Source: Phycisphaerales bacterium (GTDB taxonomy: Bacteria > Planctomycetota > Phycisphaerae > UBA1845). From it: a stretch of 64,000 nt of DNA. Shown in pieces: positions 54,889 through 58,171 of this stretch. Every line of letters starts with the position of its first letter. The first letter of the stretch is position 1. The DNA lies in contig JADZBE010000013.1 in the NCBI GenBank assembly GCA_020852275.1, positions 62,001 through 126,000 on the forward strand. The letters run 5' to 3'. Made by a program: the position numbers and the translations under genes. The notes below the pieces were generated by a model. That model searched no databases and was not told the DNA's origin. It saw only the letters and a list, made by a program, of their open reading frames with translations.

Positions 54889-55599
54889 CTAGCCAAGCTC
54901 ATCGGAGAGGGAAGAAACGATCAGCAGCAGGCAGCCTTCCTTCGTGCTTTGCACGTCGTGGCGGCTCCCGGGGGTCATGCGCTGGTAGTCGCCCTTGTGG
55001 AACTCCACGTCGCCCGCCCACAGGTCGCCGTCGAGCACGAGGCACTCCTCCGGACCGTCGTGGATATGGCGGGGGTAGGCAGTGCCGGCAGCCATGCGGA
55101 CGAGGGCGGTCATCTGATTGCGCTGCGGGTCAACGAAGAGACGGCGAACTTGAATCCCGGTGATGCCTGTCTCTTCCCACGCGCCCTCGTCGCGGCGGCG
55201 GATGAACCAGTCCGTCGAAGCTTCGTCGCCTTGCCAGCGCTTCCAGACTTGGGGATTCGGCTGGGCGTGGGCCGAAGCAGTTTCGCCGGGGGCGTGCGCG
55301 ACCACCGCCTGGCGCCGCGCGGCAGTCCCATCGCCGGCTGGCAAAGCGGCCGCCTGATCGACTCGACTTTCGATGCGCGCGATGACCTTCTGCTTCAGCG
55401 CGGCGTCCACGGTCACGAGCGCCGTCGAGGTACACAGCTCATCGACCACCGCATCCAGTTGATGCAGCTCGACCCGGCAGCGCGGACAGCCATCGTGCAC
55501 GTGGCGCTCGAAGGCGGCGGCCTCGTCGGCGGTCAGCGCGCCGGCGACGTACAACGTCGCCAGTTCCTGCGGGTCTCCAATCGAATGCTCATGGCTCAT
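54889..55599 (-). CDS. Zinc-binding anti-sigma factor with ChrR-type cupin domain
   Basis: A 236-aa protein whose ATG 55599 overlaps the sigma gene stop (ATGA). The N-terminal anti-sigma zinc motif is 'FERHVHDGCPRCRVEL' (Hx3Cx2C). After a linker, residues about 130-230 form a cupin with 'PRHIHDGPEECLVLDGDLWA' (HxH, Glu) and 'GDYQRMTPGSRHDVQS' (second His). This is the ChrR plan, in which the zinc domain holds the ECF sigma factor and the cupin metal site is needed for the response to singlet oxygen or peroxide in Rhodobacter. Here the signal is unknown. No membrane helix is present, so it acts in the cytoplasm. Confidence 0.88.
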   Translation of the reverse strand: MSHEHSIGDPQELATLYVAGALTADEAAAFERHVHDGCPRCRVELHQLDAVVDELCTSTALVTVDAALKQKVIARIESRVDQAAALPAGDGTAARRQAVVAHAPGETASAHAQPNPQVWKRWQGDEASTDWFIRRRDEGAWEETGITGIQVRRLFVDPQRNQMTALVRMAAGTAYPRHIHDGPEECLVLDGDLWAGDVEFHKGDYQRMTPGSRHDVQSTKEGCLLLIVSSLSDELG

Positions 55600-56147
55600 G
55601 GCGTCGGCTCCATGATCTGTCCGCTGAGAATGTCCTTCAGCTTCTGTATCCCGCGGCGAATCCGCGTCTTGACCGTCCCCAGGGGAAGCGACTCGCGCTG
55701 CGCAATCTGCTCGTGCGTCAGCCCACCGTAGAACGCCAGCCCGATCAGCGAGCTTTGCTCGCGCGGCAGGCTTTGCAGCGCCCGACCGGCGAACTGACTC
55801 CAGTCGGCCAGCTCCAGGTGCTCCGCGGCATCGCCGCCGTCGGGCACGTCGGATTCGAGCGTCGAAGTCGCGCGGCGTTTGCGGCGCCGCAGATGATCCA
55901 TGGCCCGGCTTCGGGCGATCAGCAGCAACCACGCCAGCGGCTTGGCTCGCTGCGGATCATACCGGTCCGCCGTCGTCCACACCTGGTAGAAGACGTCCTG
56001 AAGCAAATCCTCTGCCTCTGATCGTGCGCGGACGAGCTTGATGAGGAAGCCAAGCACGCGCGGCGCATGACGATCGAAGAGGCGTGCAAACGCCTCCCGG
56101 TCGCCGCGCGCGACAAGCCCGACGAGTTCCCCATCCGCCAACGACAT
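55596..56147 (-). CDS. ECF RNA polymerase sigma factor
   Basis: A 183-aa sigma factor from ATG 56147. Region 2 ('AFARLFDRHAPRVLGFLIKL', 'AEDLLQDVFYQVWTTADRYD', 'PLAWLLLIARSRAMDHLRRR') and region 4 ('LQSLPREQSSLIGLAFYGGL', 'THEQIAQRESLPLGTVKTRI') are complete, joined by an acidic linker. It directs RNA polymerase to a small set of promoters once released by the anti-sigma factor encoded next. A GAATCC-N16-CGTATCCCCT element lies about 100 bases upstream and the same element precedes the divergent DUF4331 gene, so it probably activates both, including itself. Confidence 0.92.
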   Translation of the reverse strand: MSLADGELVGLVARGDREAFARLFDRHAPRVLGFLIKLVRARSEAEDLLQDVFYQVWTTADRYDPQRAKPLAWLLLIARSRAMDHLRRRKRRATSTLESDVPDGGDAAEHLELADWSQFAGRALQSLPREQSSLIGLAFYGGLTHEQIAQRESLPLGTVKTRIRRGIQKLKDILSGQIMEPTP

Positions 56148-56249
56148 CGTATCCGCCCGACCCGATGCAACGCGAGAAACTCCCCGCGCCCGGAAGCACG
56201 CTCCCAGATTATCGGAATGAAAAGGCAGAAGCAATCGACCGTCTCCTGC

Positions 56250-56281
56250 AGGGGATACGTCGCAGCGTGGATCGCGGATTC
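56250..56281 (-). promoter_or_regulatory. Predicted ECF promoter of the sigma/anti-sigma operon
   Basis: On the minus strand GAATCC (56281-56276), a 16-base spacer, then CGTATCCCCT (56259-56250). It has the same two boxes and spacing as 56604-56635. The leader to ATG 56147 would be about 95 bases. Confidence 0.7.
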
Positions 56282-56603
56282 AGGTGCAGTGAAAAAATAT
56301 CGGCGAGCCCGTCCTTGCCGACAGGAGCATGGCCAACGGAGTACCGTAGGCCATGCCACCCGCCCGCAGGTGAGATTGCCGCGGGTGGGGCGGCTCTCCG
56401 AGCCGCCACGGTCCATCAGCTCTCTGAGCTGATGCGCACCCCAGCAACCTCTCGACGATCATGGCGCGGCGCATCGCACTCGGATAGCAACATAGCATGA
56501 AGGAGCAGAATCCTCATGACCGTTCCGCAGGTCGCACACCTGCTCCGCCCCTGGGTCGCGCATTCACCTTGATCCAGCATCGCCAGAAATTTCCTCTTCC
56601 CCC

Positions 56604-56635
56604 GAATCCGCCCGCGCCGCCTCGTCGTATCCCCT
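56604..56635 (+). promoter_or_regulatory. Predicted ECF promoter of the DUF4331 gene
   Basis: GAATCC (56604-56609), a 16-base spacer, then CGTATCCCCT (56626-56635). The spacer sequences of the two sites differ, so the matching boxes are not part of one longer repeat. The leader to ATG 56702 would be about 60 bases. Confidence 0.7.
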
Positions 56636-56701
56636 CGCGTACACCCTGATCGTTCAGGCGTGGCTTACCAGACACCTTGTTCTTAACGAGGAGGATTCAC
56701 G

Positions 56702-58171
56702 ATGAGTTTCTTGAGAGGAAGGTCCGCGCGCCTGGCCGCCGCGGTCCTGGTTGTGGGGATGCTGCTGGGCGTGGCGAAGGCTTCAAGCCATCGCGAGGCG
56801 CCGTACATCACGGAACACCCGAAGGTCGATGCGACGGACTTCTACATGTTCCGCGCGTATGAGCCGGGGCGCGAAGACTATGTCGTGCTCGTCGCCAACT
56901 ACGTGCCGCTGCAGAACCCCTATGGCGGTCCGAACTACTTCCAGCTCGATCCCGAGGCCGTTTACGAAATCCACATCGACAACAACGGCGACGCGATCGA
57001 GGACATCACGTTCCAGTTCCAGTTCAACAACACGCTGCAGGACATTCAACTTCCCATCGGCACGGGCGACAACGCCGCGAACGTCTCCATTCCGCTCGTT
57101 CAGGCGGGACAGATCTTCGCCGGCAACACCTCGGCGCTGAACGTCGTGGAGTCGTACACCGTCACGATGGTGGAAGGCGACCGCCGCACGGGCAGCGCCT
57201 CGCCGGTCTGGAACTTCGACACCGGAGCGATGGACTTCGCCAAGCCGGTGGACAACATCGGCACCAAGACGCTGCCGGATTACGAAGCCTACGCGGCGCA
57301 GCACATGTACACGATCGGCATCCCCGGCTGCGCGCAGCAGGGGCGCATGTTCGTCGGTCAGCGCAAAGACTCGTTCGTCGTCAACCTCGGCGAAATCTTC
57401 GACCTCGTGAACGTGACCAATCCGCTGGGCCCGGTGGACGCGGAGCATGACGACCTTGACGACGCCAACGTGACGTCGCTGGTCCTCGAGCTCCCGATCT
57501 CCTGCGTCCGCACTGAGGCCGGCAGCACCATCGGCGCCTGGACGACCGCGAGCCTGCCGAAGAAGCGCAAGCTCAAGACCAACGCCACCTTCGAGCGCCC
57601 CTCCAGCGAGAGCGGCGAGTGGGTGCAGGTCTCGCGTCTGGGCATGCCTCTGGTCAATGAAATCGTGATCGGGCTGAAGGACAAGAATCGGTTCAACGCC
57701 TCCGAGCCGATGAACGACCTGGCGCAGTTCGCCACCTACGTCACCAACCCGACCTTCCCGGCCCTGCTCGAGATTCTCTTCTTCGACGCCGGCGTCCGCG
57801 CTCCGACCGCGATTCCGCGAGCGGACCTTGTAGCTGCGTTCGTCACGGGGATTGACGGTCTCAATGCCAACGGCGGCGTGGGCGAGATGGTGCGTCTGAA
57901 CCTGGACATTCCGCCGACCGCGGCGGACGCGCAGAGCAACCTCGGCGTGCTGGGCGCGGACCTGGCCGGTTTCCCGAACGGTCGCCGTTTGGGCGACGAC
58001 GTGGTGGACATCGAGCTGCGCGTGGCGATGGGGGTGCTGCTGCCGATCGAGCAGGCCCCGTCCGGTCAACTTCCGTTCACCGACGGTGCGTACGTCGATT
58101 CCAGCTACTTTGACGCGGTGTTCCCATACCTGAAGACGCCGCTGGCGGGTTCGCCGAACAACACGCCGTGA
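56702..58171 (+). CDS. Exported DUF4331 protein
   Basis: A 489-aa protein with GAGGAGG upstream of ATG 56702 and a signal peptide ('LAAAVLVVGMLLGVAKASS'). The mature start 'SHREAPYITEHPKVDATDFY' followed by 'MFRAYEPGREDYVVLVANY' is the defining DUF4331 signature ('SSHREAP...D.TD.Y.F'). 'PLQNPYGGPNYFQLDPEAVY', 'QRKDSFVVNLGEIFDLVN' and 'DDVVDIELRVAMGVLL' near the end also match. The molecular role of DUF4331 proteins is not known. Their genes are often found beside ECF sigma genes, as here. It is divergently arranged with the sigma gene and shares its promoter motif. Confidence 0.92.
   Translation: MSFLRGRSARLAAAVLVVGMLLGVAKASSHREAPYITEHPKVDATDFYMFRAYEPGREDYVVLVANYVPLQNPYGGPNYFQLDPEAVYEIHIDNNGDAIEDITFQFQFNNTLQDIQLPIGTGDNAANVSIPLVQAGQIFAGNTSALNVVESYTVTMVEGDRRTGSASPVWNFDTGAMDFAKPVDNIGTKTLPDYEAYAAQHMYTIGIPGCAQQGRMFVGQRKDSFVVNLGEIFDLVNVTNPLGPVDAEHDDLDDANVTSLVLELPISCVRTEAGSTIGAWTTASLPKKRKLKTNATFERPSSESGEWVQVSRLGMPLVNEIVIGLKDKNRFNASEPMNDLAQFATYVTNPTFPALLEILFFDAGVRAPTAIPRADLVAAFVTGIDGLNANGGVGEMVRLNLDIPPTAADAQSNLGVLGADLAGFPNGRRLGDDVVDIELRVAMGVLLPIEQAPSGQLPFTDGAYVDSSYFDAVFPYLKTPLAGSPNNTP

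Follow-up and report, generated by a model that had tools for sequence, protein, structure and literature searches.

The window analysed here, a 64-kb stretch of DNA from a Phycisphaerales bacterium, contains a divergent gene arrangement in which an ECF sigma factor gene and its anti-sigma factor gene lie on the minus strand, while a gene for a predicted exported DUF4331 protein lies on the plus strand. The features of this locus are listed below.

54889..55599, minus strand: gene of a ChrR-type anti-sigma factor with a cupin at its C-terminus; its start codon and the stop codon of the sigma gene overlap (ATGA)
55596..56147, minus strand: ECF sigma factor gene, 183 aa from the ATG at 56147
56250..56281, minus strand: predicted promoter of the sigma/anti-sigma operon, with GAATCC at 56281-56276, a 16-base spacer at 56275-56260 and CGTATCCCCT at 56259-56250 (-10 box CGTATC at 56259-56254, then CCCT)
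56282..56603, no strand assigned: stretch of 322 bases separating the two promoters, with two dispersed short repeats of the genome
56604..56635, plus strand: predicted promoter of the DUF4331 gene, with GAATCC at 56604-56609, a 16-base spacer at 56610-56625 and CGTATCCCCT at 56626-56635 (-10 box CGTATC at 56626-56631, then CCCT)
56688..56694, plus strand: GAGGAGG ribosome-binding site of the DUF4331 gene, read from the sequence
56702..58171, plus strand: DUF4331 protein gene, 489 aa (PF14224, E=1.2e-144)
56702-56782, plus strand: predicted signal peptide of the DUF4331 protein, a signal-peptide-like N-terminus ending in AKA
From 56783 (56783-56803), plus strand: predicted mature N-terminus SSHREAP, with a conserved AxA/SSH junction

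An earlier reading of this DNA, made from the sequence without database searches (the sequence-only reading), had called an ECF sigma factor gene opposite a DUF4331 gene, and Pfam confirms the ECF sigma factor, the ChrR-type anti-sigma factor and the DUF4331 protein. The sigma factor consists of regions 2 and 4 only (Sigma70_r2 and Sigma70_r4). Among solved structures, RpoE of R. sphaeroides comes closest to it (E=3.5e-31), followed by SigK (1.8e-22), with all others weaker. A start at the TTG at 56234 is unlikely because orthologue alignments begin within the first residues of the 183-aa form. In a tree, the ChrR-partnered ECF factors group together, although this tree includes only four references, and the R. 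sphaeroides reference forms a long branch (2.16).

The anti-sigma factor is composed of an N-terminal anti-sigma domain and a C-terminal ChrR cupin, and it matches the PDB structures of ChrR (3o14 and 2q1z). In the Pfam search, Cupin_7 was recognized (E=5.4e-19) and no match to RskA_C was obtained; the matches to TIGR02451 (anti_sig_ChrR) and zf-HC2 were below cut-off. The cupin zinc ligands, as known from the prototype ChrR (PMC6852236; HxHxxxE...H), correspond to H177, H179, E183 and H213, which are invariant in 11 sequences. The N-terminal zinc finger (H...Hx3Cx2C in the prototype) reads HVHDGCPRC in the window, with one extra residue ahead of the first cysteine, and the anti-sigma factors of four related loci (L057, L060, L061 and L063) are devoid of the zinc-finger cysteines. 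The window system is of the ChrR type.

The sequence-only reading had described one two-box element on both sides of the gene pair, and direct inspection reproduces it to the base: GAATCC-N16-CGTATCCCCT is exact in both copies, at 56281-56250 on the minus strand and at 56604-56635 on the plus strand. Both copies are oriented toward their genes, the -10 box ending about 106 bases upstream of the sigma ATG in one case and 70 bases upstream of the DUF4331 ATG in the other. The identical spacing that had been claimed therefore stands, while the description of the spacers as unrelated holds only in part, because both start with GC. This spacer start agrees with a preference for G or A directly 3' of the -35 box in other genomes. 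A coincidence had been regarded as unlikely, and the counts agree, since GAATCC-N14-18-CGTATC occurs in the window at these two places only, whereas 100 dinucleotide shuffles of the window gave a mean of 0.01 matches and never two.

The two elements are 322 bases apart in the window versus about 95 bases in same-genus relatives. Between them, the segments 56322-56370 and 56383-56437 have copies at about 47 other places of the genome with 82-98% identity, and the latter segment contains strong hairpins (CGGCTCTCCGAGCCG and TCAGCTCTCTGAGCTGA).

Conservation was assessed in a set of 80 genomes, namely that of the window and 79 relatives. The sigma factor has few close orthologues in this set, and DUF4331 occurs in 11 of the 80 genomes (the own genome included), usually adjoining such an orthologue. 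Where the divergent arrangement is the same, both promoters are kept, as the comparison of relatives proposed in the sequence-only reading would predict. The three same-genus genomes (G001-G003) have GAATCC-N16-CGTATA paired with GAATCC-N16-CGTAAA or CGTAAT, a genome of the same family (G031) has the element on both sides, and G066 has TGATCC-N16-CGTAT on both. In six further genomes (G019, G035, G045, G050, G060 and G069), the DUF4331 gene is apart from the sigma gene or in line with it, and the element precedes DUF4331. No element was found upstream of distant ECF paralogues that lack ChrR (L067-L070). DUF4331 also occurs in a shortened version of about 390 aa: in G031 (L057, C34:18066-19052) it matches the family in separate pieces, with the divergent twin promoters kept, and it recurs in G321, G286 and G396.

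A wider view was obtained by a DUF4331 alignment scan of genome contigs, which returned 80 loci from Planctomycetota, Verrucomicrobiota, Acidobacteriota, Pseudomonadota, Myxococcota and Melainabacteria; 79 of them were used for upstream counts. Occurrences of ATCC-Nx-CGTA with x from 8 to 25 were tallied in the 300 bp ahead of the DUF4331 homology, and expected counts were taken from the remaining sequence of the same loci. The core was found 43 times at a gap of 16 (0.44 expected) and seven times at a gap of 17 (0.13 expected), with 0-2 counts at other gaps, in loci that are not independent samples. The chance estimate is this gap spectrum; a reversed-pattern control was set aside, since a pattern may differ in likelihood from its reverse. 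Upstream of the ECF genes of these loci, the exact core fills gaps 16 and 17 only. In a leave-one-out matrix analysis, 66 of the 79 loci have a site that exceeds the 99% null threshold. In a Planctomycetota sample drawn separately, the exact core was present in 21 of 28 cases, with one count beyond gaps 16 and 17 (at gap 11). The exported DUF4331 protein, proposed earlier as part of the regulon, is in this way followed across phyla, and on sequence evidence the finding extends well beyond its own genome.

The cross-phyla consensus is G[A/C]ATCC[G/A]-N15-CGTATA, and several Verrucomicrobia have CGTT as the -10 box in both promoters. The core of the predicted element is ATCC-N16(17)-CGTA; positions 1 and 2 of the -35 box and the sequence following CGTA vary among genomes. 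The binding rule put forward in the sequence-only reading is thus retained in its single sharp spacing and narrowed in its outer bases. Paired promoters within one genome resemble each other (123 versus 87.7 for shuffled pairs, p ~5e-5). Some within-genome resemblance is also seen in a spacer control, so composition or kinship accounts for some of the pairing signal, and the covariation serves as supporting evidence only.

The element is associated with the ChrR-type partner as well. Full-length ChrR was found in 15 of 21 motif-positive genomes, in one of seven motif-negative genomes and in none of 11 genomes of the same family that lack DUF4331 (Fisher tests gave p values of 0.02 and 0.0009, with no correction for kinship). 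Taken together, these data make DUF4331 a predicted core target of ECF factors of the ChrR type and of the related RskA type. Not every member of the family has the promoter, because plasmid-borne genes of Rhodobacterales and Actinobacteria are without it: in the plasmid-borne set, the exact core is upstream in 3 of 15 cases and a GCATCC-N16-CGTT variant in one; the remainder includes five Rhodobacterales loci linked to type II secretion and others from Actinobacteria. Some Phycisphaerae also have DUF4331 genes that lack the promoter.

The genome-wide motif search proposed in the sequence-only reading, run with GAATCC-N14-18-CGTATC, yielded seven matches in 5.05 Mb, so the motif is far from abundant at random positions. 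Most matches beyond the promoter pair are inside open reading frames or have no following gene start. The looser GAATCC-N16/17-CGTA has 19 sites, mostly within predicted coding frames. No convincing third target emerged from this search of the own genome, and the regulon may consist of just two transcripts. A site common to G001 and G002 (L161/L165) was considered and rejected, as it lies inside a 743-aa open frame.

The two boxes had been read as the -35 and -10 elements of an ECF promoter, and this assignment agrees with experimentally defined promoters. The ChrR-linked ECF factor PSPTO_1043 of P. syringae has the binding consensus TGATCC-N16-CGTA (PMC5507510), and the same sequence characterizes the Shewanella RpoE2 promoters, whose starts were mapped (PMC4336711); the ATCC core, the spacing and the -10 box all match. 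Since the window also encodes an RpoE-like sigma factor and a ChrR-type partner, its boxes resemble an ECF11 promoter, and the element is very probably an ECF promoter read by the adjacent ECF11/ChrR-like sigma factor. It is improbable that another ECF factor of the same genome is the main reader and the adjacent sigma gene only a fellow target. The genome does contain 16 ECF-like matches, and at some DUF4331 loci the promoter is present with no ECF gene within 6 kb. Nevertheless, the promoter goes with ECF genes partnered by ChrR or RskA, often adjoining ones, the two promoters of a genome co-vary, paralogues without ChrR have no element, and the sequence of the element fits the class of the adjacent sigma factor.

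Two further explanations deny that the boxes are promoters at all. That they are operators of a conventional DNA-binding regulator is very improbable: the boxes are neither inverted nor direct repeats of each other, they always face the gene at promoter distance, their gap of 16-17 equals that of mapped ECF11 promoters, and no conserved regulator besides the ECF pair was found among the neighbours, even though regulator sites can also consist of two boxes at a fixed distance. Least probable of all is a chance resemblance or a recent functionless duplication of one intergenic stretch. Chance is rejected by the conservation of the element across phyla at one spacing. As for duplication, the dispersed repeats between the boxes indicate that the region was rearranged in this species, but the match is limited to the boxes, the flanks differ, and relatives with a shorter and different intergenic region retain both elements.

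The promoter reading leads to the DUF4331 protein, which matches its family over the full length (483 bits, the curated cut-off being 27; the alignment spans profile positions 1-421 of 421). This family has at least 573 relatives in many phyla. Behind the predicted signal peptide, 99 of 104 sequences continue with Ser-Ser-His. In 95 of 104, a typical cleavage site (small residue, any residue, Ala) stands immediately ahead of this position, and the histidine at mature position 3 shows no variation among 51 aligned sequences. An N-terminus of the form Xaa-Xaa-His, when free, is the ATCUN site for copper or nickel (compare PMC7701195), and the mature Ser-Ser-His is a candidate Cu/Ni-binding site. 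An AlphaFold2 model of the mature protein (56783-58168) has a mean pLDDT of 88.8 and a pTM of 0.91. When it was compared with the PDB, nothing exceeded a probability of 0.18 among the 50 matches listed, so no function can be drawn from the fold search; the modelled fold is possibly as yet unsolved.

In many phyla, DUF4331 (PF14224) genes form operons in the order DUF4331 - TPR - HupE/UreJ, some with a TonB-dependent receptor, whereas the window gene stands alone opposite the sigma operon, with no TPR or HupE/UreJ gene directly 3'. The recurrent operon, with either a TPR or a hypothetical protein in the middle, was seen at L071, L188, L192-L195 and others, and its HupE/UreJ product is named 'nickel transporter' in Streptomyces. 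In some Duganella (L093, L118), the TonB-dependent receptor of the operon has its own GAATCC-N16-CGTA promoter, and DUF4198 is a partner of DUF4331 at some loci. On plasmids of Rhodobacterales (L189, L190, L191, L197 and L198), DUF4331 adjoins an A24 prepilin peptidase and/or a type II secretion operon; the genes beside type II secretion are without the ECF promoter, and their products may be substrates of the adjacent secretion system. A more general proposal, tentative and on present evidence rather doubtful, is that DUF4331 is a secreted or envelope protein binding Cu(II)/Ni(II) through its SSH ATCUN motif, deployed across phyla by ChrR/RskA-type ECF factors, often with HupE/UreJ, DUF4198 or TonB receptors.

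In the circuit proposed for the window, the gene pair would have twin divergent promoters, each with the two boxes as its -35 and -10 elements, and RNA polymerase would read them with the sigma factor encoded alongside. In a resting cell, the ChrR-type anti-sigma factor made from the same operon would hold the sigma factor. A signal acting through the anti-sigma factor would set the sigma factor free; by analogy, this could be singlet oxygen, an organic peroxide or a metal acting at its metal sites. Starting from the predicted promoters, the free sigma factor would then have its own operon transcribed, giving positive feedback, together with the divergently oriented DUF4331 gene, from whose exported product the cell would presumably benefit. 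DUF4331 hence looks to be tied to an apparent redox- or metal-sensing stress circuit.

The promoter class and the type of circuit are already known, and the conserved DUF4331 target is the new part. Neither DUF4331 nor its link to ChrR/RskA-type ECF factors is named in any paper of the searched literature, which leaves most subscription journals and database supplements outside; the large ECF reclassification paper and its supplement, likewise outside the search, may list DUF4331 as an ECF neighbour. Within this literature, the locus offers a first regulatory context for a large family without a named paper or a solved fold. ATCC-N16/17-CGTA provides a testable binding rule for a ChrR-linked ECF group beyond the well-studied Proteobacteria, and the same layout in any cultivable host would be a route to the signal and to the role of DUF4331. 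If the metal-binding reading were true, it would define a metal and oxidative-stress regulon that is widely conserved and had no name before.

Among known systems, the closest likeness is to ECF11, represented by RpoE-ChrR of R. sphaeroides, PSPTO_1043 of P. syringae and RpoE2-ChrR of Shewanella. There, too, an ECF sigma gene overlaps the gene of a cupin anti-sigma factor, the operon is autoregulated (as predicted for the window), the cupin metal ligands are kept, and ATCC, a 16-base gap and CGTA are shared. The differences are that the -35 box starts with GA in the window (GC and others in relatives) rather than the TG of the studied ECF11 promoters, that the N-terminal zinc finger of the anti-sigma factor deviates in the window and is missing from some relatives, and that the conserved target is DUF4331, whereas the proteobacterial core regulon contains photolyase and fatty-acid genes. 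The second system to be compared is SigK/RskA (ECF19), as SigK is the second-best solved relative of the window sigma factor. In Burkholderiales and some Gammaproteobacteria, the ECF factors adjacent to DUF4331 have an RskA_C anti-sigma factor as their partner and group with SigK, whereas the window anti-sigma factor is of the soluble cupin type and not of the membrane RskA type. The sigma factors at DUF4331 loci thus span ChrR-partnered groups and one RskA-partnered group with M. tuberculosis SigK (its RskA domain checked in one member), which suggests that the anti-sigma type changes while the DUF4331 target stays constant.
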